Shown here piece after piece: positions 1,223 to 21,861 of a stretch of DNA of 28,146 bases (the stretch's first letter is position 1; each line of letters opens with the position of its first letter). The DNA is from a virus. The notes beneath the pieces were generated by a model. It saw nothing but the letters and a program-made list of their open reading frames with translations, was not told the DNA's origin and made no database searches. The stretch lies in IMG/VR virus record IMGVR_UViG_3300025309_000419, positions 1 to 28,146 of that record. The stretch is one strand, 5' to 3'. The translations under genes and the position numbers were made by a program.

Positions 1223-1264
1223 CTCATAGAAGATTGAACAAAACATTTTTTGGGAGCAGGGATT

Positions 1265-1954: not shown

Positions 1955-2016
1955 TTTCCAATTTTTGTAGTCTGTCCAGAACATCTTGCCACTGTGCTGT
2001 TGTGATAAGGCCAGGC

Positions 2017-2256: not shown

Positions 2257-2333
2257 TTTCCGCTCCTTATGGATTTTGAAATACTTTAAAAATTTAACAT
2301 CCGTGAAACGATAAATATCCCTCTGATTTTTGG

Positions 2334-2362
2334 ATTATAACAAAACCGACAATCAAAGTCAA
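2334..2362 (-). promoter_or_regulatory. Consensus sigma70-type promoter for the 79-aa exported protein
   Basis: Read on the - strand: TTGACT (2362-2357, 5 of 6) and a perfect TATAAT (2339-2334), separated by 17 bp. Transcription should start near 2327, giving a roughly 70-nt leader before the ATG at 2256. This is the best promoter match I found in the window. Confidence 0.75.
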
Positions 2363-2412
2363 GAAGTTTCCTCATTCAAGACAACTTCCAGTTATACGCA
2401 ATATAGTTGTTA

Positions 2413-8282: not shown

Positions 8283-8283
8283 G

Positions 8284-8640
8284 TTACACCTCTACGATTT
8301 CAATTTGAACGTTCCATTCGTGTTGCTGGCTATCTTCAAGCGTATAAACAACAAGCTTTCCAAATTTGACAGTATAAGACGCATTATCAACAGGATTTAC
8401 CCAAGTGAATGAATCCGCTCCATATCGCACTGTAGTTCGCTCAAAGGTCTCAATCAGTTCTTTGTCGGTGTTCGACAACTGGCTGTAATTGAAAGACCAT
8501 TTTTGAGGAACTGACGTAAATTTTGCCCGCGTCTGGACTTTACCGTTTTCAAAACCATTCCGCAAGGTCGGGTCTGTGGCGGCTTCCTGCTGAAAGCCTA
8601 CGGCATCTGGATTAACTGAAAGCGTAGGAAAACTACTCAT
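8284..8640 (-). CDS. Minor tail protein, lambda gpM type
   Basis: A 118-aa beta-rich protein of the phage minor tail protein (gpM) family, recognised from FPTLSVNPDAVGF, the central KWSFNYSQLSNTDKELIETF segment and the C-terminal VKFGKLVVYTLEDSQQHEWNVQIEI. In lambda gpM acts with L, K, I and J when the tail-tip complex is completed around the tape measure. Length is normal. Its ATG overlaps the tape-measure stop codon by one base (TAATG), so the two are probably translationally coupled. The L-like gene follows two bases after its stop. Confidence 0.85.
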   Translation of the reverse strand: MSSFPTLSVNPDAVGFQQEAATDPTLRNGFENGKVQTRAKFTSVPQKWSFNYSQLSNTDKELIETFERTTVRYGADSFTWVNPVDNASYTVKFGKLVVYTLEDSQQHEWNVQIEIVEV

Positions 8641-10778
8641 TAGCCATTCCCTCTCATCTTGTGATATAGCGTGCCGTAATTATCAATGTTATCAGCAACA
8701 ACCGATATAATCCATTCTTTGCCATTAAATTGCGGCTTACCCTGTTGTTTCATTGGCTGGCCTGTATTGTTATTGATTATCACGTTGGGCGGTATGTTAT
8801 TTGAGGATTCCCCGCTGGTTACTGCCTGAACGCCAAGCTTGCCATTGATTCTTGTCAGTGGCATTACGGCTTCGGCACCGGCTTCGCCCATAAGACCATA
8901 GCCCCTTGCCATAGGGAAGTATGTCGGACTTTCAACTATTCCACCGTAAGCATAAGGCGTAACCGCTCCATCACTGAAAACTCTGCCCTGGGCAGCATAC
9001 GAACTCATAGCGGCATTTGAATCACCTGCCGGACTGCCGCCAAAAACGCCACCAAATATCCCGCCGATACTACCTGTCATTGACGACACGATACTTGCCA
9101 TCGCAGCCCGCATTTGTACTTTGATAATATCAGCAATCATTTCGTTGCAAAGCGATTTAAAATCAATCTTGCCAGTCATAACCATTTCGGAAATAGCGTC
9201 TGACATTCGATTGAGATTGTCAACTGCAACATCGCCCATATTTGCCCAGACATTAGTAGAGGACGATACCCAGTCGTCAATTTTCTGGTTAAATGCACCA
9301 ACGCCCCTTTGAGCCTTTTGGACTTCAATTAGCTTTTGCCGGTATTCTTCCATTACCCTGATATTTTCTTCTGTACCCGCACCATAGGCAATATCAGCCT
9401 CTTTTTGGAGCTTCATCATTTCAACTGCACGCTCTCGCTCGTCATTGCTTTTGCCTATTAGAGACCGCTCAAACTCAAGCGTTTTGAAAGCATCTTCAAT
9501 TTTCTCTTTGGCGTTTATTTGCTCGGTCGAAAATTTCTGGACTGCATCGGCGGCATCTTCAAAACCCGCAGTTGTCGCGGTTGTCGCTACGGCCTGCTCC
9601 TTTAAGCTCTTTTCTGTTGTTGTTTTTTCCGGTGGATTTAACATATCAGAAAAAACCTTACCAGTCAGATTGTCCCTTTGGAATGAATTATAAAACGCCT
9701 TGTCTCTAAGCTCGGACTGAACCTTTCTGTTTGCTGCGGCTGTATCATCTATGTCCGAAGTGTCCCAATCAACCTTGTCAATATGTAGTTTTTTGCCAAT
9801 CCAAGAGTCGGCAAGTTTGTTTTGTATCTTCTCAATACCGTTTATGGCCTCGGACGTTGCCTCTAAAAGCGTTGCAGGTATGCCAATTAAAAACGTGGCC
9901 GTAAGCTGCATAAGGCCGTAAAATGTTTCGCCTAAATCAACGCATAGTGCCAGCGGAATAGTTAAAGCCCTGAAAATACTTTCAAGGCTCTCTGTTGAAT
10001 CTGTAAAGGCTTTATTTTGTGAAATTGTTTCAGTAAGACGCAAATTAAAGCTATCCAATGCGGCTGCCGCTCCATTTGCAGACGGTATCATTTCTCCGAA
10101 TGTTTGAGCGACATTACCTAATGAGTTTTTGAATTGTTCCCAAGACCCGCTACTTGTACTTATTGCAGCGGTAGCAAGATGAAAAGAATCTGTACCGATT
10201 CTCAAGACCTCAGTAAATTTTTCCTGTGCCGTCAGGCTATCATCAAGGACAATGCCGTATCTGGACAGCATTTGGGTTTGTCCCTGCGAAGCCCTGCCGA
10301 TAAGTTGCATTGCAGAAGCCAAATCCATGCGGTATTTTGCGGCTAATCCCGCTGCGGCTATGGCGGCATCGTCAAGCTGACTGGTGGTAACGCCAAGATT
10401 CTTTGCATACGCCATTTGTGATATTATCAAATCATCGTCATAAATGGTTAGCTTTTGCATTTCCGATGCAAACCCGTTGAATTTACTCATAACAGAATCA
10501 AGCTGTTTGCCGGTATCACTAAGGGCTGCCGCAAGTTCGGACTGTGCCTTTTCCGCTTCCCACGCATTAGAAATCATATACTTAAAGACGGCACCGGCAG
10601 ACACTACGCCAACAAGCCGTTTAAAAGATGACATAAGCGTATTATTCGAGCCGCTCACCTTATCAACGGCATTCGCGGCTTTTGCAGCTGAATCAGAGAT
10701 ACTTGCTGTTGCACCGTTAAATTGAACTGCTCCGGTAGCCGCCCCTCTTGCATCAATCGCTAATTGTAGTGTTGCCAT
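8640..10778 (-). CDS. Tail tape measure protein
   Basis: This 712-aa protein sets tail length and is probably injected or expelled ahead of DNA. It is the longest gene between the chaperones and the tip, the canonical position. The N-terminus is Ala-rich (ATASISDSAAKAANAVDKV). A hydrophobic segment lies near residues 275-310 (MQLTATFLIGIPATLLEA), a charged helical stretch follows (about 400-470), and a second hydrophobic Gly/Ala patch lies near 555-590 (SSMTGSIGGIFGGVFGG). The C-terminal GLMGEAGAEAVMPLTR motif is typical of siphovirus tape measures. At the usual 1.5 A per residue the tail would be about 107 nm. The ATG overlaps the previous stop (TAATG). Confidence 0.92.
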   Translation of the reverse strand: MATLQLAIDARGAATGAVQFNGATASISDSAAKAANAVDKVSGSNNTLMSSFKRLVGVVSAGAVFKYMISNAWEAEKAQSELAAALSDTGKQLDSVMSKFNGFASEMQKLTIYDDDLIISQMAYAKNLGVTTSQLDDAAIAAAGLAAKYRMDLASAMQLIGRASQGQTQMLSRYGIVLDDSLTAQEKFTEVLRIGTDSFHLATAAISTSSGSWEQFKNSLGNVAQTFGEMIPSANGAAAALDSFNLRLTETISQNKAFTDSTESLESIFRALTIPLALCVDLGETFYGLMQLTATFLIGIPATLLEATSEAINGIEKIQNKLADSWIGKKLHIDKVDWDTSDIDDTAAANRKVQSELRDKAFYNSFQRDNLTGKVFSDMLNPPEKTTTEKSLKEQAVATTATTAGFEDAADAVQKFSTEQINAKEKIEDAFKTLEFERSLIGKSNDERERAVEMMKLQKEADIAYGAGTEENIRVMEEYRQKLIEVQKAQRGVGAFNQKIDDWVSSSTNVWANMGDVAVDNLNRMSDAISEMVMTGKIDFKSLCNEMIADIIKVQMRAAMASIVSSMTGSIGGIFGGVFGGSPAGDSNAAMSSYAAQGRVFSDGAVTPYAYGGIVESPTYFPMARGYGLMGEAGAEAVMPLTRINGKLGVQAVTSGESSNNIPPNVIINNNTGQPMKQQGKPQFNGKEWIISVVADNIDNYGTLYHKMRGNG

Positions 10779-11122
10779 TATTTGCCCTTTTTCTTTTTGG
10801 CATTCTGTTCCTGTGTATGCTTATCGGAAGCCCATTTGCACCACTCATTGTCCATCGCCAAAATCAGTTCGTAAAACTCTAAATCATCAATCTGACGAAA
10901 ATTCAAATACGTCAAAATATCAGACGTTCTCAGTGGGCTTATGCCAAACCCACTTTGCCTGCCACTGTGAAGCTGTTCAAATGCCTGCCATATTGGAATA
11001 AGGTCGTCAAAAAGCTCCGGCCTGTTTTCAATCGCCGGTACTCGCTTACCTTTTGCCGCAATTTTTTCGAGTTGTTGAGCATAATTTCCCCATTCCAATT
11101 GCCATCGCAGGCATTCAATTAG
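10778..11122 (-). CDS. Tail assembly chaperone T part, made as a -1 frameshift extension of G
   Basis: This reading frame continues the 11119-11523 gene after a -1 slip and is the equivalent of lambda T in the gpGT fusion. From the slip (CTA at 11122) it adds 114 aa, so the fused product is 248 aa. The sequence is charged and helical, ending in a Lys-rich tail (HTQEQNAKKKKGK). Its only possible independent start is a TTG at 11098 without a convincing ribosome site, supporting expression by frameshift. In lambda, gpG coats the tape measure and gpGT recruits tail tube subunits. The stop codon overlaps the tape-measure ATG. Confidence 0.85.
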   Translation of the reverse strand, partial: LIECLRWQLEWGNYAQQLEKIAAKGKRVPAIENRPELFDDLIPIWQAFEQLHSGRQSGFGISPLRTSDILTYLNFRQIDDLEFYELILAMDNEWCKWASDKHTQEQNAKKKKGK

Positions 11123-11523
11123 TTTTTTATTGATTCCTTTTTAGTTTCCTGTCGATAACGTGCAGCACTCGTTGACTCGTTGATAATAAAATCGTACAAA
11201 TCGACAAGTTCAGGTTTTCTGAATAACTCGAGAGCGTTTTCGGGACTGTAAGGAATTGGCTTGCCGGCCTCGTCCTCAACGTTTTTCCAGCCGACCAGTA
11301 TGCATTTTGCGGCTGCCTGTTTTGTCAAGTCGAGGCGTTTCTCTGCGTCAAATGAACCAGCTCTCATTTCTTTTAAATGTGGCTCAATGAGAGTCTTTAA
11401 GTACTTTATATATTCCGCATTGTCCATTCGAGCAATTTTGAAACTATAACCCAAATAATGCTCAACCCATACGCCACCGACAACCTTTTGCGTATCAACG
11501 GCGATTGCACTTAATTTTGCCAT
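11119..11523 (-). CDS. Tail assembly chaperone, lambda gpG type
   Basis: A 134-aa protein, the major product of the chaperone pair between tail tube and tape measure genes. It contains KIARMDNAEYIKYLKTLIEP and FRKPELVDLYDFIINES, typical of the siphovirus chaperone family. I chose ATG 11523 rather than an upstream TTG because AAGGAG sits 8 nt before it. Its last codons read ATA AAA AAC TAA, placing a slippery heptamer directly before the stop. Most ribosomes would terminate here, and a minority would shift to make the GT-like fusion. Two hairpins precede it, perhaps lowering its expression relative to the tail tube gene. Confidence 0.88.
   Translation of the reverse strand: MAKLSAIAVDTQKVVGGVWVEHYLGYSFKIARMDNAEYIKYLKTLIEPHLKEMRAGSFDAEKRLDLTKQAAAKCILVGWKNVEDEAGKPIPYSPENALELFRKPELVDLYDFIINESTSAARYRQETKKESIKN
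11122..11128 (-). promoter_or_regulatory. Programmed -1 ribosomal frameshift site A AAA AAC
   Basis: On the - strand, frame 0 reads ATA AAA AAC TAA, so A AAA AAC fits the X XXY YYZ rule exactly in phase. A -1 slip gives AAA AAA CTA ATT GAA..., open through to 10778. A small stem-loop can form just downstream (TGCC/GGCA or the outer AATTG/CAATT), a possible stimulator. Confidence 0.85.
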
Positions 11524-11575
11524 TTTAAAAACTCCTTTTTTAAATAACTTTCCTATTTCCAATCCACTCCTTTTT

Positions 11576-11617
11576 GTCGTAGCAGGGCTGGCATACGAAC
11601 CAGCCCCAAGCCACGAC
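11576..11617 (-). terminator. Long intergenic hairpin between tail tube and chaperone genes
   Basis: GTCGT/ACGAC and GGGCTGG/CCAGCCC make a two-part stem (5 + 7 bp, plus an internal GC pair) with an 8-nt loop. It lacks a downstream T-tract on the - strand, so it is better read as an mRNA-stabilising or attenuating structure after the tail tube gene than as a full terminator. Confidence 0.5.
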
Positions 11618-11620
11618 TAT

Positions 11621-11645
11621 TTAAAAAGGAGAAAACTCTTTTTAA
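11621..11645 (-). terminator. Intrinsic terminator/attenuator at the tail tube stop codon
   Basis: The TTAAAAAGAG arm pairs with CTC(C)TTTTTAA around a TTTT loop, with one bulged base; the 3' arm itself is T-rich. It overlaps the tail tube stop codon (11642-11644). Since the chaperone and tape measure genes lie downstream, it probably reduces rather than abolishes read-through. Confidence 0.5.
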
Positions 11646-12826
11646 GCTGCAAACTTAACGATTCTGATTGTTACGTTTTCTGTTGCATCACGAGAAGCAG
11701 AAAACTTCATATCAGATATACAATCCTGAGACTGGCCGCCCGCAACTCTCTGGCCGTCTGTGTACTTCACTTCGGGAAAGTCGAAAACATAGGCATTGCC
11801 CGCAACATCATTAACCAAAAACGCCAAGGACGAGGCTGTAAAGTTCAGATATTTGTCCATCAGTGCCGCCGTTGCAAAATACGCCTTAAGCGTGCCTGTT
11901 ATATTCAATGCTCCTTTACCGAGCGACAGAGTGTTGCCATTGTTTCCAATGAGTAACCGGCTTCGCAGGTTATTTGATAACTGGAACGAGAATTCGGTTG
12001 CGTCAAAATCGGCCTGATTTTCAAGGATTGAATGAACATTATCGACACCGGACATTACTTCTGTCGAAGTCGCAACATCATATCCCTGAGCCGCAGACGC
12101 AGCAGCTGATACTTCATTTGCCCCCATAAATGTAATTCCGCCGCCTATCATTGCCTCTGCGGACACGCTTAGCGACACACCGTCAACGCACATACCCTTA
12201 AGCAACGAATACACATTGGTTAAATCGGTGTATTTTTTCTCGATATTGAACGATGGGCAGGTTACGCCGTTTTTAATATACGCTCCCTGCTTAATCGTTA
12301 CCGAGTCGCCAGCCGCTTCATCGACAAGCGTCAAGCCTGAAACCGTGAGAATGTTATTCTCTGTTGTCGGCGAATCGGAATGGGTTATGCTGACAATCTT
12401 CGCATAGCCGTTGTTTCCGGCTGTCGTAAATCCAGCGATTTTAACCCACGAACCGACTACCCAGTCCTTGAAATCATCATCGGTTGCACTCTGATACTTA
12501 TTGCCGGACGCAATGGCCTGAATATCTGTGCCAGTTGCTGTTAATACAGACGTCCAATCAGCATCGGCCATAAGAGCGGCTTTAAGCAGGTCGTCATAAG
12601 TGCCATAACTTAGCTCGAAATTGATACCGCCTGACGCAGAAATCTTTGTGCGTTTCAAGCCTGATATTTGACGGTCTGAGCGAATTTCCTTACTGGATTC
12701 TGCCGCTGAATCCTGCTTTAATGATTCGCCAGTATGTCGCAGCGTTTGCATATTTCCGCTGGTTACCGCCACTCCAAAAGTTGATTCTGCTATGTATGCT
12801 AATTGTACTAAATTACTATCTGACAT
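11642..12826 (-). CDS. Major tail tube protein
   Basis: A 394-aa tail tube protein of the long siphovirus type. The N-terminal ESTFGVAVTSGNMQTLRHTGESL and SKEIRSDRQISGLKRT segments, with IRSDR before a beta-rich body, are characteristic. A middle insertion (about residues 95-180, KYQSATDDDFKDWVVGSWVKIAG to SVTIKQGAY) looks like an added beta domain exposed on the tube surface. The gene lies between tail-completion genes and the G-type chaperone, the standard place. It has a strong ribosome site (TTTAGGAGTACAAAAATG), close to those of coat and chaperone, consistent with high expression. Two hairpins follow its stop. Confidence 0.85.
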   Translation of the reverse strand: MSDSNLVQLAYIAESTFGVAVTSGNMQTLRHTGESLKQDSAAESSKEIRSDRQISGLKRTKISASGGINFELSYGTYDDLLKAALMADADWTSVLTATGTDIQAIASGNKYQSATDDDFKDWVVGSWVKIAGFTTAGNNGYAKIVSITHSDSPTTENNILTVSGLTLVDEAAGDSVTIKQGAYIKNGVTCPSFNIEKKYTDLTNVYSLLKGMCVDGVSLSVSAEAMIGGGITFMGANEVSAAASAAQGYDVATSTEVMSGVDNVHSILENQADFDATEFSFQLSNNLRSRLLIGNNGNTLSLGKGALNITGTLKAYFATAALMDKYLNFTASSLAFLVNDVAGNAYVFDFPEVKYTDGQRVAGGQSQDCISDMKFSASRDATENVTIRIVKFAA

Positions 12827-12844
12827 TTTTGTACTCCTAAAAAA

Positions 12845-13255
12845 TTAGTTTATCTCATCAAATTTAAAGGGACAAACCACGTTGATTTGCCACTCGCTAT
12901 CAACCCTGCCAATACGTTTAATTGACGGCGTTAAAAACCTTACGCCGTTTACTGTAATTCGCCTGAAAGCCACTTTAATTTTGTCCGCCATTACGATACC
13001 GGCCTTATCACCAATTCCGATAGGCGTAAATACCTGAGCTATCACAATGCCGCTTGTTCGCTCCGTCCGGCTGCCTGTGCTGCCGATGCTGACCTGTTCA
13101 CTGTCTCCCTCTTTAATTGTTAGCCGACACCACATAGAGCCGTCTGCGGGCTTCGTGAAATCCTGATTGTCGTATTGAGTAGATAAACTGTTTGTATCCG
13201 CAATAAGCGTTTTAAACCTGCCCCGAATCGTATTTGCCACTGTTTCGTGCGTCAT
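12845..13255 (-). CDS. Tail terminator-like protein (DUF4128 type)
   Basis: A 136-aa protein with the pattern of phage tail terminators (lambda gpU role): an N-terminal helix (ETVANTIRGRFKTLIAD), a beta-rich middle (WCRLTIKEGDSEQVSIG, SGIVIAQVFTPIGIGDKAG), the helix ADKIKVAFRR, and the ending IKRIGRVDSEWQINVVCPFKFDE. It would cap the tail tube and form the interface to the head. The position directly before the tail tube gene agrees. It overlaps the preceding gene by 4 bases (ATGA), indicating translational coupling. The family name is from pattern memory; the terminator role is inference from position and fold. Confidence 0.72.
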   Translation of the reverse strand: MTHETVANTIRGRFKTLIADTNSLSTQYDNQDFTKPADGSMWCRLTIKEGDSEQVSIGSTGSRTERTSGIVIAQVFTPIGIGDKAGIVMADKIKVAFRRITVNGVRFLTPSIKRIGRVDSEWQINVVCPFKFDEIN

Positions 13256-13653
13256 TCTATAGCCCCCTCAAACATTGACCTTAATTCCTCAACGGTTAAG
13301 GCAAGCATACCTGTAGGAGCCTGTTGAGAGCTTCCATCTTCAAGAAATTCAATGTAATCAACATTGTTGCTTATCCAAACGATGCTATAATCAGGCAAGC
13401 CTGTAATCGCCGCGATACCCTTTGCTACTGTTGCCATTCCATCTTTATCTAATGTTTCAAGCTGGCCAGCAGCAGCCAGGTCGATTGTTGTTTGCCAATT
13501 GCCTCTTGCTCTACCGGTATCAACCGGAGTTTTTTCAACCAGCCTTTTCAGAGCCTCAAGGACAATCTTCTTTTGCAACAACGACACTTTGCCCGGTATC
13601 GTTTCTGAAAAAGCCTGAATCTCTTTATTGAATTCTTGTAGATTGTTTCCCAT
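13252..13653 (-). CDS. HK97 gp10-like tail completion protein
   Basis: A 133-aa protein with the HK97 gp10 family signature KTPVDTGRARGNWQTTI, followed by SIVWISNNVDYIEFLEDGSSQQAPTGML and a C-terminal helix. Members connect head and tail between the head-completion protein and the tail terminator. The order head closure, gp10-like, terminator, tail tube is the usual siphovirus order. The ribosome site AAGGCG lies 3-4 nt from the ATG, a short spacing. The 3' end overlaps the next ATG by 4 bases. Confidence 0.85.
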   Translation of the reverse strand: MGNNLQEFNKEIQAFSETIPGKVSLLQKKIVLEALKRLVEKTPVDTGRARGNWQTTIDLAAAGQLETLDKDGMATVAKGIAAITGLPDYSIVWISNNVDYIEFLEDGSSQQAPTGMLALTVEELRSMFEGAIE

Positions 13654-13662
13654 TATCGCCTT

Positions 13663-13953
13663 TTAAATTTCAGGTAGTTCTACTGTTTGGCCTGCCATTT
13701 TATGCGTACAGTCGCTTAAAAATTGAATCTGTCCGTTCCTGACAAAACTATGACATCTTGGCTGACAAGCACTTTGATGCACGAGCATTGACGGACTAAA
13801 TGTTGGCTTTTCGGTATTCCCGTCAAATATCCAATTACACTTAGGATTGCTATGGTTTGTATAGAATAAATGCCCGCACTCACAAGCTGGACAGAAAATC
13901 ATATAGCCTGCCAGTTCGTCTTTATCGTTTTTTACTGGTACTGCTTTTGCCAT
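13663..13953 (-). CDS. DUF6527-type small protein
   Basis: A 96-aa protein with an N-terminal zinc-ribbon-like part (FCPACECGHLFYT, then C in PKCNWIF) and the conserved NTEKPTFSPSMLVH, PRCHSFVRNGQIQFLSDCTH and AGQTVELPE motifs. I recognise this as the phage-associated DUF6527 family, commonly found among head-tail genes. No biochemical role is known to me; the Cys and His pattern suggests metal binding and a structural role. It has an AAGGCG ribosome site (spacing 6) and sits tightly between the head-completion-like and gp10-like genes. Confidence 0.75.
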   Translation of the reverse strand: MAKAVPVKNDKDELAGYMIFCPACECGHLFYTNHSNPKCNWIFDGNTEKPTFSPSMLVHQSACQPRCHSFVRNGQIQFLSDCTHKMAGQTVELPEI

Positions 13954-13955
13954 TT

Positions 13956-14396
13956 TTATCGCCTTAACTGAAACATATACAAAGCTATCTGCTGGCCGGT
14001 ATAAATCGGCATAACCCTAATAATTTTCCAAGTCATATCATCAAAGCAAACCGTCATACTTTTGGCTGGTGTAAATTCTAAGTCTTTGGCCGCAATGCCA
14101 GACTGCATATCACCGACTTTTATCAAATCGCCGTCAATATATTTTGATTCATACTCAAATGGCGGTATTATTTTTTTGATAGGGTAAATCGGGTCAAGTC
14201 CTGTCGCTTCCCCCTTTGTAGGGTCATAATCTTTTTGAGGCTGAATAACAAAAACCACAGATTTACCGAGCTTTGCAATCAACGCCAAGACCTTAGCCCT
14301 GAGCTTTTTATCGAGCTTTGTCGGACTATCCTGCAATCCGGCAAGTAAATCAAACGGATTGATAGAGTTCAGATTATTTCCCGATTCAATGGTCAT
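13956..14396 (-). CDS. Probable head closure / head-tail joining protein
   Basis: A 146-aa protein whose C-terminal two thirds match the pattern of phage head-closure proteins: VVFVIQPQKDYDPTKGEA, then LIKVGDMQSGIAAKDLEFTPA, then DDMTWKIIRVMPIYTGQQIALYMFQLRR. The last motif, a W-x-I strand followed by a Y-x-x-QLRR end, is typical. An N-terminal helical segment (LLAGLQDSPTKLDKKLRAKVLALIAKLG) precedes it. It would seal the portal/adaptor and receive the tail. Its ATG overlaps the upstream stop (TAATG). Family is by pattern, so the assignment is probable rather than certain. Confidence 0.65.
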   Translation of the reverse strand: MTIESGNNLNSINPFDLLAGLQDSPTKLDKKLRAKVLALIAKLGKSVVFVIQPQKDYDPTKGEATGLDPIYPIKKIIPPFEYESKYIDGDLIKVGDMQSGIAAKDLEFTPAKSMTVCFDDMTWKIIRVMPIYTGQQIALYMFQLRR

Positions 14397-15346
14397 TATT
14401 CCGGTGCCTCAATTTTTGTTTGTATCTCGCTTGTACTGGTAACTGTGTAATTCTGCTGAGATATAGCAGTATCGTTTGAATCATAAACATAGATTTTTCG
14501 GACTGTTCGGTCTTTTTCGTACTTATAAGCAAGGCGGCTATACAGCCAATACATCATCTCATCGCCCGCCCAGGTATTTGGGTCGCCAGTCGGTACAGAG
14601 AATTTGACTATCACGGGGTCAGTATTCGGGTCGAAAGTTGAATGAGTTATATTGTCATTAACATCGTTAATAGCTGTTTTGATTGCAGGCAGTCCGTAAG
14701 TTGGATTCCAAAGCCCCGTTATGACATAGCTATTGACATCTTCAACCTGTGAAGCGGTTGCAACACCGTAAGAAGTCAAAGCGTTTTGAGCCTGGGCATT
14801 GACATCCGCTACCGTCAATGTTGAAAATCCAGTTATCTTGAAATCAGATATACCACTAACAGACGTGCCTGCGACCTGAGAAATATCGACCTGCAATTTG
14901 CCAGAACCAGCGTAAAGTGAATCGTAGGTATTTGCTGGCAAAACAGTATAATCCTCACGGAAAGCCAAAATTGTGTCGGTTGATACTCCGCAAGGGTCTG
15001 TATATGACGTGAATGACAACATTAGATTGCCCGCCACATTTACATCATTGGGACAAAGCGTAAGTGTGGCAAGGCCGTAGCCTGTCAGCGTCAATATGTT
15101 ATCATTGGCATCGCCGGTTTTTTTAAGCGGCAAGATTCTGTTTTCGCTCCCGATTGCCAACTCACAGACAATATCATTCACGTCAAAGTCGTTATTGTCT
15201 GTCAATACCGCTTTGCCGTCCGACCAGTCCCGGAAATGTCCGACTGTGATAGTTGTGGCGGTATTTTGCCGCAATGTCGCTGCTGATACATAGGCTGCCG
15301 CCGCCAAAATTAAGACCAATCCTGTAATTTTTAAAATCCGTTGCAT
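14396..15346 (-). CDS. Phage structural-type protein with a signal peptide
   Basis: The first 22 of 316 aa form a clean signal peptide (MQRILKITGLVLILAAAAYVSA). The following beta-rich part and the VLPANTYDSLYAGSGKLQVDISQVAGTSV motif resemble a family of virion proteins, often neck or fibre-like, with PANVYDSL...LQVDVSQV. In the relatives I recall there is no secretion signal. The C-terminal part (WAGDEMMYWLYSRLAYKYEKDRTVRKIYVYDSNDTAI) resembles the end of such proteins. The ribosome site GGAG is 8 nt before the ATG, and the gene overlaps the dockerin/LamG gene by 16 nt, so it belongs to the late operon. Whether it is a virion part or an exported product is unresolved. Confidence 0.65.
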   Translation of the reverse strand: MQRILKITGLVLILAAAAYVSAATLRQNTATTITVGHFRDWSDGKAVLTDNNDFDVNDIVCELAIGSENRILPLKKTGDANDNILTLTGYGLATLTLCPNDVNVAGNLMLSFTSYTDPCGVSTDTILAFREDYTVLPANTYDSLYAGSGKLQVDISQVAGTSVSGISDFKITGFSTLTVADVNAQAQNALTSYGVATASQVEDVNSYVITGLWNPTYGLPAIKTAINDVNDNITHSTFDPNTDPVIVKFSVPTGDPNTWAGDEMMYWLYSRLAYKYEKDRTVRKIYVYDSNDTAISQQNYTVTSTSEIQTKIEAPE

Positions 15347-16911
15347 TTTCGTTTCTCCATATCATCATAGTATTTTTGTACAGATACATCTGTAAAAATT
15401 GTTATTTGCGGATGCCACTTGACATTATTACTGTCGCTAAAATTCCCTACAAGACCGAGTTTGCTATCAGTAATTGTATATCCCCCGGCCTCATTGCACA
15501 TAAACAGAACAGCAGAGGCTTTGCCGAATTCTCCCCAAATAACTTCATTGGCACTTTGAGTTCTGCTGCTCTGCCCCTGCATATAGCAAAGATTTTGTGT
15601 TGTGTCGTATCCAGTAAAGAATCTGATTTTGTCTATCTGGTCTTTGTGTGGATTCTTGCTGTTAAGACCAATAAATAGATTTCCATTATTAGCAAATGTT
15701 CCTGCGTAATTCACAGCAGAGGATTGTTCGTAGGTATCAACCTGAATAATTAAATTGTTATTATCGTAAATAAAACCTACTTCGTGCCATTGGCCATCGT
15801 CAATGCGACTGGAGTATCGAGCCTCAAAGACAAGACCGTTTGAATCATACAGATAAATTTTCGGCCTGCCGGAAACAATACCAATTTCGTAGCCCTTGCC
15901 GTCCGTGCCTCTTTTTTTCATCAGGCCAGAAAACGGTGTTCTGGTATTTACCCAAAAATCAATAGCCCAACCATCAACAATATCGAATTTGTCATTATCA
16001 GGTATTTCAACAAATCCCCTGCCGTTAAAAGCAAGACTGTCGAGTATGTTTGCCGCAACATCGAGCGAAATAGTTGCTACGTTTGAATCGCTATAACTGT
16101 CATTGGCCTTAAATTTAAAGCTGTCCGTACCGTTCATATCCGTGATAAACCAGACAATATCACCCCAAGAGCTTAAAGTATAAGGCACTTTGGTTATCAT
16201 ACCGGCTCCGCTTTTTGGGTCTTGCAATGTGCCGTGAGCGGGTAATTGAGTGATTATATATTTCAGTTTGCCGGGCGGGTCTGGCTGTCCATCATCGGTT
16301 GCGATTAAGGTTATGGCCTCTGTAATATAGGCCATAGCACTGACCGTCCGATTACTGACCGTTGGACTTATAGGCTGGGCATTGACTTGTATTGTAGCCG
16401 TGCCGACAGACAGGCCGCCACACGGCGGATTGAAGCCGGTATTATCGTTAGCTCCGACATTAAAAACTACCGTGCCAGTATAATTCGGGTCTGCATTGAA
16501 TTGGAATGTATTACCCGCTAAATTATGAGGTACAGAGCTAACGCCGGTAATTGTACCCTGATTAGCATCCGGCAAAGACCGTATGCTGTAAGTAATGCTC
16601 TGTTCGTCTGTGGCAGTTATGGTAAGCGTTCGGCTCGTGCCGGCCAACATTATCACGCCCGATATATTCTGGATTACAGGCGGGCTGTCGTTGCTATCTC
16701 TTGCGAGCCATTCGCTGGCCATAATCGCAAGGTCGCCCGCATCAACATTGCCGCTTTCGTCAATATCAGCCGTAACATCATCGGTTTGCCAGCCATTTGC
16801 CAAAAGAGCAAAATCCCGCAAATCAACACAGCAATCGCCATTGCGATTCGACCGTGAAGCAATCGCTCCACAAGCCACTACCAACAAAATTATTAAAATT
16901 AGCTTTTTCAT
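15331..16911 (-). CDS. Secreted multidomain protein: dockerin-like, Ig-like repeats and LamG
   Basis: Domains of the 526-aa protein in order: signal peptide (MKKLILIILLVVACGAIA), then a dockerin-like pair of EF-hand repeats at about residues 23-72 (GDCCVDLRDFALLANGW and DIDESGNVDAGDLAIMASEW), two Ig/cadherin-like beta domains (about 76-180 and 183-290, containing NYTGTVVFNVGANDN and GTDSFKFKANDSYSDSN), a LamG domain (about 293-445; FVEIPDNDKFDIVDGWAIDFW) and a short C-terminal tail. This architecture is typical of planctomycete surface proteins. It is nonetheless locked into the late operon: ATGA overlap with the upstream gene and 16-nt overlap with the downstream one. Glycan or surface adhesion is the likely function. 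The LamG part is not a near copy of those in the tail proteins. Confidence 0.72.
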   Translation of the reverse strand: MKKLILIILLVVACGAIASRSNRNGDCCVDLRDFALLANGWQTDDVTADIDESGNVDAGDLAIMASEWLARDSNDSPPVIQNISGVIMLAGTSRTLTITATDEQSITYSIRSLPDANQGTITGVSSVPHNLAGNTFQFNADPNYTGTVVFNVGANDNTGFNPPCGGLSVGTATIQVNAQPISPTVSNRTVSAMAYITEAITLIATDDGQPDPPGKLKYIITQLPAHGTLQDPKSGAGMITKVPYTLSSWGDIVWFITDMNGTDSFKFKANDSYSDSNVATISLDVAANILDSLAFNGRGFVEIPDNDKFDIVDGWAIDFWVNTRTPFSGLMKKRGTDGKGYEIGIVSGRPKIYLYDSNGLVFEARYSSRIDDGQWHEVGFIYDNNNLIIQVDTYEQSSAVNYAGTFANNGNLFIGLNSKNPHKDQIDKIRFFTGYDTTQNLCYMQGQSSRTQSANEVIWGEFGKASAVLFMCNEAGGYTITDSKLGLVGNFSDSNNVKWHPQITIFTDVSVQKYYDDMEKRKCNGF

Positions 16912-17393
16912 CGCGGCTCCGCAACCTCAAAACAGACGTTCATAAATTCAAGATTACGCTGTATCTCTGCCGCATAATTCGGGTCGTTCGGGTCTGGCAG
17001 GATATTCGGGTCGTTGAGACATTCTATCACTGCCGACAAAAATTCATTGTTTTGTTGTTTTGTTTCCAGCGTGGTTTTCTTTTCGCAAACAATTTTGCCG
17101 ATAACTTGACAGCTACTCCCCGGCAAATTCATATCTGTACAAAGGGGCGGAGCGATAGCGTTCACGTCAACCGCAACCTGTCGGACTTCGCAAACATCCG
17201 CAATCCGCTGGCGTAATACTTCGTCAATCGTGCCAGTGTATATTTTCGTTGTGAGGTCTTGTTCCATTACTTTTAGCTCGGCAACTTTTTCGGAAAGCTC
17301 CGCCTGTCGAACTTCAAGACTATTTGGGTCTGTTGCCAAAACACACACACCCGCGAACACTATAACTACCAAAAAAATAATTATATTTTTCAT
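16908..17393 (-). CDS. Exported coiled-coil protein of unknown function
   Basis: The 161-aa protein has a signal peptide (MKNIIIFLVVIVFAGVCVLA), a predicted coiled coil (about residues 25-70, RQAELSEKVAELKVMEQDL), a Cys-containing middle (VCEVRQ, PLCTDM, SSCQVIGKIVCE) and a charged C-terminus. Six cysteines after the signal peptide suit an oxidising compartment, which supports export being real. I do not recognise a family. AGGGTG precedes the ATG by 6 nt, and the stop overlaps the dockerin/LamG ATG (ATGA), so the two are translated together and may form one exported complex. Confidence 0.55.
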   Translation of the reverse strand: MKNIIIFLVVIVFAGVCVLATDPNSLEVRQAELSEKVAELKVMEQDLTTKIYTGTIDEVLRQRIADVCEVRQVAVDVNAIAPPLCTDMNLPGSSCQVIGKIVCEKKTTLETKQQNNEFLSAVIECLNDPNILPDPNDPNYAAEIQRNLEFMNVCFEVAEPR

Positions 17394-17397
17394 TTTT

Positions 17398-17586
17398 TCA
17401 CCCTACCTGTTCAATTTGTACAATAATTTTTTCATCCTTTTTCGGCTTTTTAAAATCAAGTTTTCCGGGGAATTTCTCTGCAATTTCCTGCATACGCTTA
17501 CGGACAGTTTCCATATCTTCTGTCCCGTCAACAGGAATTTCAGCAACTTCGCTAACCCGATAAAATGCCGCTCTTAGCTTTGCCAT
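17398..17586 (-). CDS. Small protein of unknown function in the connector region
   Basis: A charged 62-aa protein with RKRMQEIAEKFPGKLDFKKPKKDEKIIVQIEQVG. No transmembrane segment and no family recognised. It has an AGAGG ribosome site 5 nt before the ATG, is separated from the upstream connector gene by a single base, and is followed four bases later by the exported coiled-coil gene. Context suggests a minor connector or regulatory role, but nothing in the sequence shows it. Confidence 0.55.
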   Translation of the reverse strand: MAKLRAAFYRVSEVAEIPVDGTEDMETVRKRMQEIAEKFPGKLDFKKPKKDEKIIVQIEQVG

Positions 17587-17587
17587 A

Positions 17588-18109
17588 TTAGCCTCTCTCG
17601 CAAACGCTGTTATCTGTGAGAAGTGATTTTAAAAGACATTCGACCAAAGAGTATTTTTTGACCTGTGATTTTCCACCTACATAAGTTGTTGATGTTTCTA
17701 TTGGTCCCGCCTTTGTGCTTTCACTTTTAATGTCCCCAGGCTCATCAATATCACCAAGTAGAGTATCGCCGCCGATAACTTTCAAAGCAAGCTCCGCACA
17801 AGCGTCTTTTAAGACCTGTGGAATTACATTGTATTCGATAAGGCAGTTCTCAATGTCGTAAGCTCCCGACCTCGGCCAAGCCAAAGCCTGAGTTGTCGAA
17901 TACTTTGTACCTCTCCATTTACCGGCGTGTTTTGCGTCAAGATACTGGGTCGCCAATCGCAAAGCTGATTCTTTTTCCGCATCGCTCGCCCCGCTCCAGG
18001 CTGTTGAGCCTGAATGCGATAAGTGATAAGCGTCAGCATCCGCAATGGACAAATAGCTTACTGCCGTTGACAACCCTGTGCCCGTTTCTACTACAAAAGT
18101 CGCAGCCAT
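17588..18109 (-). CDS. Head-tail connector, DnaT-like family
   Basis: A 173-aa protein with the pattern VETGTGLSTAVSYLSIADADAYH, then SDAEKESALRLATQYLDAKH, WRGTKYSTTQALAWPRSGAYD and IPQVLKDACAELALKVIGGD. This matches the phage protein family often labelled DnaT-like ssDNA-binding, whose position after the coat gene and helical architecture suggest a head-tail adaptor that docks on the portal. I favour the adaptor role. The AGGGA ribosome site lies 9 nt before the ATG, and the gene follows the signal-peptide protein gene by five bases. Confidence 0.75.
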   Translation of the reverse strand: MAATFVVETGTGLSTAVSYLSIADADAYHLSHSGSTAWSGASDAEKESALRLATQYLDAKHAGKWRGTKYSTTQALAWPRSGAYDIENCLIEYNVIPQVLKDACAELALKVIGGDTLLGDIDEPGDIKSESTKAGPIETSTTYVGGKSQVKKYSLVECLLKSLLTDNSVCERG

Positions 18110-18114
18110 TGGAC

Positions 18115-18885
18115 TTATTCCCTTTTGAATGGTTGGTAATATACTGTTATATCTCTCGCATCTAAATCACTACCACCCCTTTTGGTTTCGACAATTGAGG
18201 CCGTAGCTCCCGTTAAATTTGCGTCAACAACTAACAACTCAACATTGCCAAGTGATTTTGGGAATGTGAAAACAAAACTTTCCTCATTGGCCAAATTCCC
18301 ATCGCTCACCGAAACTTCGCCGGTGTTAAGAACAGATAAAGCCAGTAAGGCGGCCTGAACATTTGCAGCATTTATATCATAAGCCAGATTCGATGTTCGT
18401 TCGCCCAAATATGACAAAGTAAAATTACCGTCCGTTGCCGGAGCATCAACAGAAAGCGTTTGCACTTCGTTTGCATCGTTGACATCGGAAGCAGTAAGTG
18501 TCAACGGTGAAAAAACAGGGATACCCCGATGATTTATATTAGGGTCTATGCTGTCTTTTTCGGTAATTGCATAGCCATACGGCTCTAATACACTGTTGCA
18601 ATCGGTCTTAGAAAATAGCGTCAGGCCGATGTTGTCTTTGAGTTCTACGCTCCAGTCGGTTTCCGTGCCGTTGGAATCAATAGTAATTCGCTCAATCGTT
18701 CCATAAATCGGCTCTGTCGTCAAGCTAACCGTACCGACATCTGTATCGGTCAGACCAAATTTGACCATACCCCATTTGCTTTCGTGATTAGCCGTTGAAC
18801 CGTCTGGATAACTCACGGTAGCTGCCTGAGCCGTCATACAGCACATCAAGAGTATCAAAACTATTGTGAAAATGAATCGTTTCAT
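18115..18885 (-). CDS. Phage structural-type protein with a signal peptide
   Basis: The 256-aa protein begins with a signal peptide (MKRFIFTIVLILLMCCMTAQA). Residues about 40-125 resemble a virion protein family in which IERITIDSNGTETDWSVEL, LTLFSKTD and FSPLTLTASDV are recognisable. Residues about 130-240 (NEVQTLSVDAPATDGNFTLSY, ANVQAALLALSVLNTGEVSV, SFVFTFPKSLGNVELL) form the NEVQ/VQAAL-type beta domain that recurs in phage structural and large bacterial surface proteins. It lies between the head-associated gene and the connector, where phages often keep a decoration or structural protein. The added signal peptide is unexpected. A GAGGT ribosome site is 4 nt from the ATG. Confidence 0.65.
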   Translation of the reverse strand: MKRFIFTIVLILLMCCMTAQAATVSYPDGSTANHESKWGMVKFGLTDTDVGTVSLTTEPIYGTIERITIDSNGTETDWSVELKDNIGLTLFSKTDCNSVLEPYGYAITEKDSIDPNINHRGIPVFSPLTLTASDVNDANEVQTLSVDAPATDGNFTLSYLGERTSNLAYDINAANVQAALLALSVLNTGEVSVSDGNLANEESFVFTFPKSLGNVELLVVDANLTGATASIVETKRGGSDLDARDITVYYQPFKRE

Positions 18886-18935
18886 ATTTACCTCACTTTG
18901 TTTTTGTCTTTGATTTTCGTTGTTCCGGCCGCAGA

Positions 18936-19232
18936 TTATTCGGTCTTTGCTTCGGGCATAAAGCCTGCCTCTGTCAGTTTAGCGATGATTGTTTCACGCT
19001 TCTTGACATTGGCTGAAAGACCGGCTTTTACTGCAAATTCGGCAATTTGTTCATCGCTACACGTAGCGAAATCAAATACGATATTTGCATTGCCTGTTCC
19101 TGTTGAGCCTGTTTCGGTCTTTGCTTCGGGCATAAGTTTATAGCCCATATCAGCCCACTTTTGTTGGTCGATTTTATTGACGATGAGACGGCCTTTTTTG
19201 CCATACATTACGATTGTTTCTAAACTTGACAT
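18936..19232 (-). CDS. Small head-associated protein with a duplicated MPEAKTE segment
   Basis: The 98-aa protein has an N-terminal beta segment (VMYGKKGRLIVNKIDQQKWADMGYKL), the sequence MPEAKTET, a linker, and a helical SAP/HeH-like part (CSDEQIAEFAVKAGLSANVKKRETIIAKLTEAG). It ends in a second MPEAKTE. The duplication is visible in the DNA as a 23-bp direct repeat. The position immediately after the coat gene, and a strong AGGAG ribosome site, suggest a minor head protein comparable to gpFI. That role is inference from position. Confidence 0.6.
   Translation of the reverse strand: MSSLETIVMYGKKGRLIVNKIDQQKWADMGYKLMPEAKTETGSTGTGNANIVFDFATCSDEQIAEFAVKAGLSANVKKRETIIAKLTEAGFMPEAKTE
18939..18961. 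repeat. 23-bp direct repeat, copy 1 (partner 19113-19135)
   Basis: Identical to 19113-19135 over 23 bp. Both lie within the small head-associated gene and encode MPEAKTE in the same frame. Copy 1 forms the C-terminus of the protein. Confidence 0.85.
19113..19135. repeat. 23-bp direct repeat, copy 2 (partner 18939-18961)
   Basis: Second copy of the in-frame direct repeat; it encodes the internal MPEAKTE. The 151 bp between copies hold the SAP/HeH-like segment, which recombination between the repeats could delete in frame (174-bp period, a multiple of three). Confidence 0.85.
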
Positions 19233-19263
19233 TTTTAAACACTCCTAAATTTTTCGTTTTAAA

Positions 19264-19300
19264 TAATACCCGCCCGCCACAACTTGACAGGCGGGTATTA
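19264..19300 (-). terminator. Strong hairpin downstream of the coat gene
   Basis: TAATACCCGCC (19264-19274) and GGCGGGTATTA (19290-19300) pair perfectly over 11 bp around a 15-nt loop, 24 bp after the coat stop codon. On the - strand the stem is followed by TTTAAAA, a short T-tract. Likely a partial terminator and 3' stabiliser that raises coat mRNA above that of the downstream genes. Confidence 0.6.
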
Positions 19301-19323
19301 CATTTCTTTTTTGGTTTCAGCCG

Positions 19324-20472
19324 TTAGCTTTGGCCGCAACCACGACAAGCGAGATTCGGGTCAAGGGTCTTGACACCATACAGGATGTCAAGAGCAACCT
19401 TTACAGCCGAGGAATCGCCGACATAGAAGATTCTCGAACGAATCGCAAGGCCGGTTATTGGGTCTGTGATTGTCGCAATCTTCGCACCAAGTTCTGCCCC
19501 CATTTCGGATAGTGGGGCGGTTGCCAATGCAAATGCGTTTCTATGGAACGCAAGATTTGCACGGTGCGTGTCGATTCTCAAATCAACAACAGCATCGGCA
19601 AGGGCAGCCGCTTTTAATGGCGGTGTGATTGACAACGTAACAGTTGTATCAACCGTTGCATCGGCAGTAATCGCATAACGCTGCGTGTCGCCGGTAATAA
19701 CCAGTGAATCTCCAGCCTTAAACGTTCCGCCGTTTGTAATTGACTTGACAACGATACTTGTCGCACCTTTTGCGGCATTAGCGTTCAACGCACCGGCAAC
19801 GTCAGCACAAACACCGCCAGTATGAAGCGGTACGTTCTGGTTTGCGAAAATTTCCATACCAAACTTTGTGCCGAGAGAACCACGCATCAAGGTCTCAAGA
19901 CCAGCTTGGCCGGCAGTAGCGGCCTGATTAAACGCTGTAAGCCCCTGCAAGCCGAGTTGCAAGTTTCCGTCAACCATATAGTGTAGATTCCCAATATCAG
20001 AGACAGGCACTTTATTGTCGAACAGAACCTTATATACTCCGGTTATATCTGACAATGCCGTGCTACCATTGTTTGCAAGGTCGTAATACCAAGGAATGTC
20101 TTTGTACTTAGCACAAAGAGCCTGATCAATGTTATCGGCCAATGCGATAGCTGCCGGTCTGATATGCTCAGAGATAATCCGCTCATCTGACCACGCCAAT
20201 TCTTTATCTGTCAGACTGAACTTGACCTCTTTCCACTGGTCAAGAGTAATATCAACAGACTCTGTTTCCAAGTCCTGAGCTGAGGACGGAGCATTTTCGG
20301 CGGTAAATGTTGATGGTTTGCGGATGCTTACCGTCTGACCTTTGCCAAAAGCCTTTCGTTCTGCGTCATATCCACGATGGACACGGCCTGCCATACCAAG
20401 AGCCTTTTCAAGCTGTATCAAGGCTTCCTGTGCATAAAAAATCGGGTCATAAATCCCAAGTGATTGTGTCAT
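19324..20472 (-). CDS. Major capsid protein, P22 coat (gp5) type
   Basis: A 382-aa coat protein with an HK97-type fold expected to form the icosahedral head. Recognisable P22-coat-family segments are the N-terminal FYAQEALIQLEKALGMAGRVHRGYD, DITLDQWKEVKFSLTDKEL, IRPAAIALADNIDQALCAKY and the C-terminal LAFHRNAFALATAPL. An inserted beta domain lies at about residues 230-300 (AKGATSIVVKSITNGGTFKAGDSLVITG), comparable to insertion domains of this family. The C-terminus CRGCG carries two cysteines. The ribosome site TTTTAGGAGTTTTAAAATG is strong. Scaffold lies upstream and a strong hairpin downstream, fitting the most abundant virion protein. Confidence 0.9.
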   Translation of the reverse strand: MTQSLGIYDPIFYAQEALIQLEKALGMAGRVHRGYDAERKAFGKGQTVSIRKPSTFTAENAPSSAQDLETESVDITLDQWKEVKFSLTDKELAWSDERIISEHIRPAAIALADNIDQALCAKYKDIPWYYDLANNGSTALSDITGVYKVLFDNKVPVSDIGNLHYMVDGNLQLGLQGLTAFNQAATAGQAGLETLMRGSLGTKFGMEIFANQNVPLHTGGVCADVAGALNANAAKGATSIVVKSITNGGTFKAGDSLVITGDTQRYAITADATVDTTVTLSITPPLKAAALADAVVDLRIDTHRANLAFHRNAFALATAPLSEMGAELGAKIATITDPITGLAIRSRIFYVGDSSAVKVALDILYGVKTLDPNLACRGCGQS

Positions 20473-20524
20473 TTTAAAACTCCTAAAAAACTTTTACTTA
20501 AATTTTTTGCCAGCCAACACGTTG

Positions 20525-21328
20525 TTAGCTTTTTGCAATTTGAAGCTGGCATCCCGCCTTTGTCGCTGCTTCTTTAGCGGCTCTATATTTCTGCGGGTCT
20601 CTGGCATCAGCCTGAGACAGAACGTGTACTCCGTTCTGAATCTTAACACCACTGCCTGTTGCACCGCTACCCGATGCACCTGTACCCTCAAAAGCCGGAG
20701 CGTATGTATCTTTGGTTTTCATTTCTTGAACAAGTTCAGCAATCGACATATTGCCGGTCTGCCCGGTCGCCGGACTGATTCGCACAACACCGTCCTTATC
20801 TACAACCTCAACAACAAATTCGCCGTTTTCGAGCTGCTTCATTCTGACGCTGTTGCGAACGTGCGGCAGTAATAATTCGATATTGCCCTTGTTTTCTGAA
20901 ATGGCTTTTATCGCAGCAGATTCGACCAGAAGTTTTTCAAGCTGCTTAGTCAATTTGCTTACCGAGGTATCTTTCGCACTAAGTTCCCCTTTGTGCTTAT
21001 CTTCAAGTTGTTTCTTGATAGCCTCAATCTGTTCTTTGACCTTTCCCTCGGTCGGCAATTCTCCAAGATTCTTAATCTTTTCAAGTGCCGCTCTGGCTGC
21101 CTGAGCATCAAGTCCCTCGAATGCTTTCAGGCCACCTAAAGCCGTGTCTTTTGCGGCTCGCTCTGCACTGAGAGCAGATTTAAGACCTTTGACGTTTTCC
21201 AGAGCAAAATCATTCACCGGCATCACATCAAGCAAGTATGACCCATCATCTTGTTTTTTGTACTCCGGCCTGATTGCTTCTGGTAATTTGTCGAACGCTT
21301 CACTTTTGATAATCGCTGCTAATGCCAT
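20525..21328 (-). CDS. Capsid scaffolding protein
   Basis: A 267-aa protein directly before the coat gene with scaffold character. It has a long charged helical/coiled-coil middle (about residues 45-145, ALSAERAAKDTALGGLKAFEGL to KLTKQLEKLLVESAA), a conserved-looking GNIELLLPHVRNSVRM segment, a Gly/Ser-rich linker (GTGASGSGATGSG), and a C-terminal RDPQKYRAAKEAATKAG helix that could contact coat. It would direct procapsid assembly and then leave the head. No protease gene is visible nearby. AAAGGAG lies 8 nt before the ATG. The gene is first in the transcript that begins in the 21329-21532 control region. Confidence 0.82.
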   Translation of the reverse strand: MALAAIIKSEAFDKLPEAIRPEYKKQDDGSYLLDVMPVNDFALENVKGLKSALSAERAAKDTALGGLKAFEGLDAQAARAALEKIKNLGELPTEGKVKEQIEAIKKQLEDKHKGELSAKDTSVSKLTKQLEKLLVESAAIKAISENKGNIELLLPHVRNSVRMKQLENGEFVVEVVDKDGVVRISPATGQTGNMSIAELVQEMKTKDTYAPAFEGTGASGSGATGSGVKIQNGVHVLSQADARDPQKYRAAKEAATKAGCQLQIAKS

Positions 21329-21342
21329 AACATATACTCCTT

Positions 21343-21395
21343 TGGCTTCCCGCCATAACTTTTAAGAGGTTTCCCGCCTCTCGGACTTCCCGTCC
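21343..21395 (-). promoter_or_regulatory. Leader with three hairpins sharing a GGGAA loop
   Basis: In the scaffold mRNA leader, three consecutive stem-loops can be read on the - strand. They are GGAC-GGGAA-GTCC (21395-21383), AGAGG-CGGGAAA-CCTCT (21381-21365) and TGGC-GGGAA-GCCA (21355-21343). Stems differ but the loop sequence is the same, a sign of selection on loops displayed by stems. The last hairpin ends one base before the AAAGGAG ribosome site. The arrangement suits a translational operator for an RNA-binding protein; the GGA-in-loop pattern is that bound by CsrA-type proteins. Confidence 0.6.
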
Positions 21396-21449
21396 TAATT
21401 TATTCGTAAGCAGGCAACACACCTGCATTAAACGCTTTATGCGGGCAAT

Positions 21450-21492
21450 AAAAAAAGACGGAGTTAGTGAGTTAGCACTAACTTGCCGTCTT
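21450..21492 (-). terminator. Strong intrinsic terminator between head-morphogenesis and scaffold genes
   Basis: On the - strand AAGACGG pairs with CCGTCTT and inside it AGTTAGTG pairs with CACTAACT (CTAACT loop, two unpaired bases). Seven T residues (21456-21450) follow. It would stop transcripts arriving from the packaging genes before the scaffold/coat genes. Confidence 0.8.
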
Positions 21493-21493
21493 C

Positions 21494-21523
21494 ATTATTC
21501 TTGCGTCCTTAACGCTGTTGCAA
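21494..21523 (-). promoter_or_regulatory. Candidate promoter for the capsid-tail transcription unit
   Basis: On the - strand TTGCAA (21523-21518, 4 of 6) and AATAAT (21499-21494, 5 of 6) are 18 bp apart. The predicted start is near 21487, inside the 5' arm of the terminator hairpin. Such transcripts would carry a shortened hairpin arm and could escape termination, while read-through transcripts would not. Moderate match only. Confidence 0.4.
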
Positions 21524-21529
21524 CAACGT
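21512..21529. promoter_or_regulatory. 18-bp operator-like palindrome
   Basis: ACGCTGTTGCAACAACGT is palindromic except for one pair of positions (4 and 15), with a perfect 10-bp TGTTGCAACA core. It overlaps the -35 of the candidate promoter. Size and symmetry suit a dimeric repressor or activator. Confidence 0.5.
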
Positions 21530-21559
21530 CAAGAAACCCGCTTAAAATTTATTTACTTT

Positions 21560-21856
21560 TTATCTCGAATACTTTCCGCAACATTTTCTATGTTGCCTGC
21601 CTGAGCCACATCTACAAAGCTCTTTACGCTTATTACCGCCTATGCCCATTCGCTCTCGCATTGTCTTGGCTTTTCTTAAAAAACTATCAACATCATCAGT
21701 GGCTATGCCGTTTTTCTCAGCGACAATCATTTTCAGATTATCGCAATGGTCAGCCATTTCATCATCTGTCGGCTTATGGCCGCCACGAACCTTTGCGAGA
21801 AATTCCCGCGTATCTGCCAGTGTCGGATTTACAACTGTTTCGGTATTATTAGTCAT
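21560..21856 (-). CDS. Small SEC-C zinc-motif protein
   Basis: A 98-aa protein with a helical N-terminal part (TLADTREFLAKVRGGHKPTDDEMADHCDNLKMIVAEKNG) and a C-terminal SEC-C motif. The zinc ligands are visible in CRCGSGRQHRKCCG (Cys81, Cys83, Cys92, Cys93). SEC-C motifs are best known from SecA, where they mediate contacts with SecB and the ribosome. Here it is attached to a short domain I do not recognise and lies last in the packaging/portal operon. AGGA precedes the ATG by about 8 nt. A role in adapting or recruiting a host factor to head assembly is speculation. Confidence 0.72.
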   Translation of the reverse strand: MTNNTETVVNPTLADTREFLAKVRGGHKPTDDEMADHCDNLKMIVAEKNGIATDDVDSFLRKAKTMRERMGIGGNKRKELCRCGSGRQHRKCCGKYSR

Positions 21857-21861
21857 AAAAC

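Follow-up and report, generated by a model that had tools for sequence, protein, structure and literature searches.

A mobile cassette of signal-peptide proteins in the structural operon of a Planctomycetota prophage, with a possible role at the host cell envelope

We have analyzed a group of signal-peptide proteins encoded among the virion genes of a virus contig, IMG/VR record IMGVR_UViG_3300025309_000419 (28,146 bases; hereafter the window). The window is 100% identical over positions 1-19029 and 19040-28118 to a contig of the metagenome-assembled genome (MAG) Planctomycetes bacterium GWC2_45_44 (Planctomycetota; G002), which contains it as a prophage. Two of the proteins, SP2 and SP3, are the core of a mobile cassette to which SP4 also belongs. 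We tentatively favor a reading in which SP2 and SP3 are an exported pair of adhesins whose likeliest task is to mask the surface ligand used by the virion, and in which SP4, leadered in this phage, is exported as well. Predicted leaders and their conservation give good support to the export of SP2 and SP3, so that binding proteins of the virus probably reach the exterior of the host cell. The original prediction that four open reading frames (ORFs) of this operon begin with signal peptides, three of them in immediate succession, holds: SP1 (18115..18885, 256 aa), SP2 (16908..17393, 161 aa), SP3 (15331..16911, 526 aa) and SP4 (14396..15346, 316 aa), all on the minus strand, have ATG starts and leaders by our rule. 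SP2 and SP3 overlap by 4 nt, SP3 and SP4 by 16 nt, and SP4 and the head closure gene Hc1 by 1 nt.

Signal peptides were called with a purpose-written rule based on a charged n-region, a hydrophobic h-region and small residues at -3 and -1. The h-regions of SP1 to SP4 have mean Kyte-Doolittle (KD) values of 3.0-4.1. The rule was calibrated on two segments of the E. coli K-12 genome, where 86 proteins were scored in classes that we assigned with the help of the annotation (not counted were 16 further full-length protein genes and three that were cut or pseudogenes); it called 9/11 exported, 0/63 cytoplasmic and 1/12 inner membrane proteins. Background among related phages was taken from a scan with the major head protein (MCP), which retained 80 of 172 loci. 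Core virion families were tested in 79 of these, L025 having no complete MCP ORF, and alternative starts were allowed. Six of 451 core virion proteins were called (TMP 3, Tt 2, TerL 1), with none among 79 MCP, 48 portal and 51 head-tail adaptor (Ad1) proteins, and so were 45 of the 758 other ORFs. Given these low rates, four leadered genes out of six between gene g98 (18936-19232) and Hc1 lie far above background, with the caveat that this stretch was picked after the fact. Among the 32 window genes tested, only SP1 to SP4 and two genes beyond the four first noticed were called: a PEP-CTERM gene beside the integrase (1250-1954, plus strand) and a 79-aa gene (2256-2017, minus strand).

The leaders of SP2 and SP3 are family traits. 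That of SP2 (20 aa; 17334..17393) is likely cut after VLA, although the rule itself chose an earlier site, and all eight family members have a leader by rule that ends in a cleavable site. Identity of the homologues to the window protein is 20-40% in the leader versus 27-49% in the mature part. The signal peptide of SP3 (18 aa; 16858..16911) has a signal peptidase I (SPase I) site, AIA/SR, that is assigned from the family; taken alone, the rule finds a lipobox at C14. SP1, SP2 and SP4 were classed as SPase I substrates and the SP3 of the window as an SPase II substrate, but its nine homologues were all classed as SPase I, and on this family evidence a lipoprotein identity for SP3 appears unlikely and was set aside. 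All 10 SP3 proteins with a complete N-terminus have a hydrophobic leader, and the presumed -1 position is a small residue in each. Nine of these pass the rule, seven from the first methionine tried and two (L094 and L151) from an upstream start, and the SP3 of G159 misses it with a net charge of 0 and a KD value of 2.09. Identity to the window is 28-56% in the SP3 leader versus 30-53% in the mature part, so the leader is not clearly less conserved. This pattern supports export of SP2 and SP3: no homologue with a complete N-terminus lacks a leader, although the leader sequence itself drifts.

SP3 is organized as a leader followed by a dockerin-like module (16720..16842), an immunoglobulin (Ig)-like repeat (Big_9, E 9.9e-6) and a ConA-like LamG lectin domain (15613..16023; LamG_3, E 1.9e-10). 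The dockerin-like match of the window protein lies under the Dockerin_1 (PF00404) cut-off (18.5 bits, E 0.0023; cut-off 22.9), which the SP3 of G159 passes with 35.2 bits; the SP3 proteins of L087 and L153 have LamG domains after the leader instead. Beyond the prophage, an SP3 profile had 21 further matches in the host genome, mostly through the dockerin end. We read seven of them, and four lie in ORFs that are leadered by rule, with the module towards the C-terminus. SP2 matches no named family in Pfam or PHROGs. The six cysteines remarked on earlier after one of the signals are present in SP2 (and in SP3 at the cut used), but they are not conserved, since the mature part of the L028 SP2 has two.

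Distribution of the cassette was determined by scans with SP2, SP3 and SP4 and by using SP2 to search 392 Planctomycetota genomes. SP3 occurs in 12 distinct phages (window, L028, L083, L087, L089, L090, L094, L095, L151, L153, L154 and G159), with L084 taken as a near copy of L083 and the SP3 genes of L089 and L090 cut by the contig end; L086, with a weak match (29% over part of the protein) and no leader, was not counted. SP2 was found in eight (window, L028, L083, L087, L094, L095, L151 and G159) and was not found adjoining SP3 in L153 and L154. A further SP2 match in G013 was dropped, as it adjoins a protein read by eye as a kinase. SP4 comes after SP3 in 10 of the 12 phages. The position of the cassette varies. 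In L028, an MCP-related locus whose MCP is 64% identical, SP2, SP3 and SP4 stand in the same place as in the window, between Ad1 (in the window 17588..18109, minus strand, no leader, separating SP1 from the cassette; phrog_477, E 1.2e-43) and Hc1 (in the window 13956..14396, minus strand; phrog_161, E 1.4e-17), and L151 likewise has the cassette at this junction. Elsewhere it lies at the Ne1/Tt junction (L153), before TerL and portal (L090), after TerS (L154), before a portal gene (L083) or at the end of a tail module (G159). Directly before SP3, L154 also encodes an additional leadered protein of 194 aa (4158-4742) with a partial dockerin-like match. A tblastn search with SP3 gave no match in 50,697 phage records, a viral contig search with SP4 alone found nothing, and nucleotide and protein searches of cultured phages with SP1, SP3 and SP4 gave no homologue, except that the C-terminal half of SP1 has a weak match in Skermania phage SPI1.

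SP4 differs from its neighbors in that its leader is sporadic. The signal peptide (22 aa; 15281..15346; presumed site VSA/AT, where the rule chose an earlier one) is shared by 2 of 15 proteins, those of the window and L090, and is missing in L028, L083, L087, L089, L094, L151, L153, L154, L155, L091, L092, G335a and a Microcystis phage protein. This count takes one of the two G335 copies, and the start of the L154 protein is uncertain. The rule did call the starts of the L028 and L083 proteins; these calls were rejected because the stretch aligns within the opening strand of the mature domain. The tree does not separate one from two gains of the leader. Most SP4 homologues start directly at the mature domain, without a hydrophobic segment, on which ground we rejected a conserved structural helix, a reading the original prediction had named as its possible refutation; in the families that keep the segment, only its hydrophobic character is kept.

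An AlphaFold2 model of SP4 is confident only at about residues 23-145 (14912..15280, pLDDT ~80), where it forms an Ig-like sandwich. Foldseek and VIA-align placed the baseplate entries of TP901-1 BppU, 80alpha and NF5 among many Ig folds (3uh8, E 1.5e-3; 4v96; phage baseplate entries at Z 6.0-7.1). As these scores are tied with those of other Ig folds, they indicate fold similarity to baseplate proteins and not membership. Five phages or prophages without SP3 (Microcystis phage Mvi-Yong1342-1, L091, L092, L155 and G335) have seven proteins before an SP4 homologue, all leaderless and by eye adhesins or beta-helix spikes, and SP3 therefore occupies that adhesin slot here. SP4-type proteins are probably part of the adhesion equipment of the virion. 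Two of the four proteins had been likened to virion families; this is borne out for SP4 by homologues and fold and weakly for SP1, and SP2 and SP3 match none. The paradox raised at the outset, that virions assemble in the cytoplasm and should not need exported parts, is accordingly weaker for SP2 and SP3, the more so as exported proteins beside receptor-binding genes are known, but it is real for SP4, a baseplate-like Ig protein whose homologues are mostly leaderless.

SP1 has a signal peptide of 21 aa (18823..18885, predicted cut after AQA), an unmatched N-terminal domain and a C-terminal domain of adhesin type. The leader is kept in all three members (window, L020 and L024). Weak PHROGs matches to major tail and sheath proteins fall mainly in the C-terminal half, a part that also matches repeated domains of giant Planctomycetota proteins, and the structure model is poor (pLDDT 42.7). 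An SP1 profile reaches 26 further Planctomycetota genomes, but by the C-terminal repeat-type domain only, so that this reach is uninformative on leaders. Leadered proteins unrelated to SP1 are encoded shortly after the MCP, as SP1 is here, in L087 (296 aa) and L095 (301 aa), and accessory lectin genes, for which the stretch between MCP and Hc1 is a hot spot, are present there without a leader in L003, L007 and L018 (LamG was tested by Pfam only in L003). Directly after Ad1, L003 (2994-3677) and L020 (4349-5029) encode leadered barrel- or porin-like proteins, with a weak Porin_4 match in L020 only. By eye, structural-module leaders were not conspicuous in other Planctomycetota prophage regions (L137-L142); in L142, a single leadered gene, lipoprotein-like, lies beyond the head-tail stretch.

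We propose that SP2 and SP3, expressed from the structural operon, would leave the cytoplasm through Sec and lose their leaders to signal peptidase I. SP3, with a dockerin-like module common to exported proteins of the host, would then show its Ig-like and LamG domains in the periplasm or at the surface, and SP4, usually a leaderless baseplate-type Ig protein, would have gained a leader in this phage and be exported too. The exported proteins may occupy or mask the surface ligand used by the virion, so that reinfection would be limited and fewer progeny would be lost on debris. Precedent favors masking at the envelope: the T5 protein Llp and the Rtp protein Rtp45, the latter of ~6 kDa, block receptors from an envelope location (PMC9586334, PMC12685063), the receptor-binding protein loci of Drexlerviridae are believed to include genes for cognate exclusion (PMC8594841), and in diversity-generating retroelement (DGR) systems signal peptides served to tell lectins displayed at the surface from those of phages (PMC6199706). 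Like Llp and Rtp45, SP2 and SP3 are phage-encoded and have a Sec leader by rule, and the coliphage genes are thought to be encoded with the receptor-binding gene. Llp and Rtp45 are lipoproteins of small size whose target is a protein of the outer membrane, whereas SP2 and SP3 are larger, SP3 has lectin and dockerin-like domains, and both belong to a head-tail module.

Several observations weigh against this proposal. SP3 holds the slot of a leaderless adhesin beside an SP4 homologue, which fits a virion role equally well; Rtp45 is far smaller than SP2 and SP3 (161 and 526 aa); the families lend no support to a lipobox; and a late operon position is ill-suited to early exclusion. The cohesin family PF00963 had no match in the host genome (G002) or in G159, both of which may be incomplete, leaving docking of SP3 to a cohesin unsupported. 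Among the options originally put forward (receptor block or decoy at the envelope, release of binding proteins at lysis, or virion parts added outside the cytoplasm), we would nevertheless provisionally rank action at the envelope first.

We consider it unlikely, but worth weighing, that in some Planctomycetota phages the lectin SP3, an SP4-type adaptor and SP1-type proteins are exported through Sec and docked onto the particle outside the cytoplasm during or after lysis, their export being explained by calcium-binding or disulfide-bearing domains that fold only there. The adhesin slot of SP3, immediately before the SP4-type protein and filled by a leaderless adhesin in other phages, and the baseplate-like Ig fold of SP4 keep this explanation alive. 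The unrelated leadered proteins shortly after the MCP also fit it, as do the mature cysteines of SP4, which number 3 and 4 in the two leadered proteins versus 0 to 3 in the 12 leaderless ones counted. Against it, SP3 is mostly leadered and SP4 leaderless, so that the two would be made in different compartments. We know of no tailed phage that adds exported parts to its virion, and such addition would be new.

Lysogenic conversion, in which the prophage would make SP1 to SP4 in the lysogen as surface adhesins for attachment of the host to surfaces or polysaccharides, is similarly improbable. The phage is temperate: a tRNA-Val lies ~105 bases from the integrase and is followed by host genes, which indicates integration, and the prophage is cut at the opposite end of the contig. 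The host-type dockerin module and the PEP-CTERM gene beside the integrase are also in keeping with conversion, and a similar gene is found in the related phage G001, where a leadered protein whose end looks PEP-CTERM-like by eye (contig positions 44222-44863, L119) is encoded close to one end of the contig, with the integrase at the opposite end. These PEP-CTERM genes are possible lysogenic cargo. The SP genes, on the other hand, overlap each other and Hc1 and thus look co-expressed with the late genes, and promoter-like matches in the region (17, against a shuffle mean of 13.4, sd 3.9) are in no clear excess. More doubtful still is a reading in which the leaders have no role and either hitchhiked from host genes or are plain anchors in the membrane: the sporadic SP4 leader would fit, but the leader character of SP2 and SP3 is kept at 27-53% mature identity, with small cut-site residues throughout. 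That SP2 is an i-spanin-like lysis protein, with an N-terminal hydrophobic segment and a helical periplasmic part, and SP3 its outer partner is highly improbable, for although the size and leader position of SP2 and the overlap of the two genes agree with it, all eight SP2 leaders end in cleavable sites, SP3 is a large lectin, and no Rz/Rz1 or related match appeared in Pfam or PHROGs at E 1.

Library searches of the window proteins identified, on the minus strand, the structural operon of a siphovirus, with a Mom-like gene, TerS, TerL, portal, head morphogenesis, scaffold, MCP, Ad1, Hc1, tail completion, tail terminator, major tail-type, tape measure and J-like tip genes; the integrase is on the opposite strand. 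The Mom-like DNA modification gene (27156-27839) opens the operon. The LamG domains of the J-like tip protein (4235-4384) and a minor tail protein (7882-8031) are 89% identical in DNA over 150 bases, which points to a recent duplication or gene conversion. The MAG contig has 114 more bases than the window, inside g98, which encodes 98 aa in the window versus 136 aa in the MAG contig; this is probably a repeat-length difference or an assembly collapse.

Lom-type outer-membrane morons of lambdoid phages are exported beta-barrel proteins encoded among virion genes. They resemble the cassette in gene position and in the export proposed for it and differ in being barrels, not lectins; the leadered barrel-like proteins of L003 and L020 are nearer to them. 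The lactococcal BppU (TP901-1 ORF48) resembles the SP4 family in having an N-terminal Ig-like domain followed by a variable C-terminus, but the likeness is at the fold level only, tied with unrelated Ig domains, and SP4 has a signal peptide here. The 936 lactococcal phages have carbohydrate-binding modules in neck and tail (PMC6669499), lectin-like and in the neck region of a siphophage as in the cassette, but these are virion parts, and the start of the abstract mentions no leader. A title-level literature search found none describing signal peptides on virion or structural proteins of tailed phages, or phage dockerins, although full texts may.

Exported phage proteins beside receptor-binding genes are known from coliphages, but the cassette of SP2, the dockerin-LamG protein SP3 and the baseplate-like SP4 as a whole matches no named family. 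To our knowledge, few phages of Planctomycetota have been studied, and the cassette offers a handle on the interaction between phage and envelope in this phylum. Because SP4 homologues fall naturally into leadered and leaderless ones, whether virion-type proteins are exported can be put to the test.

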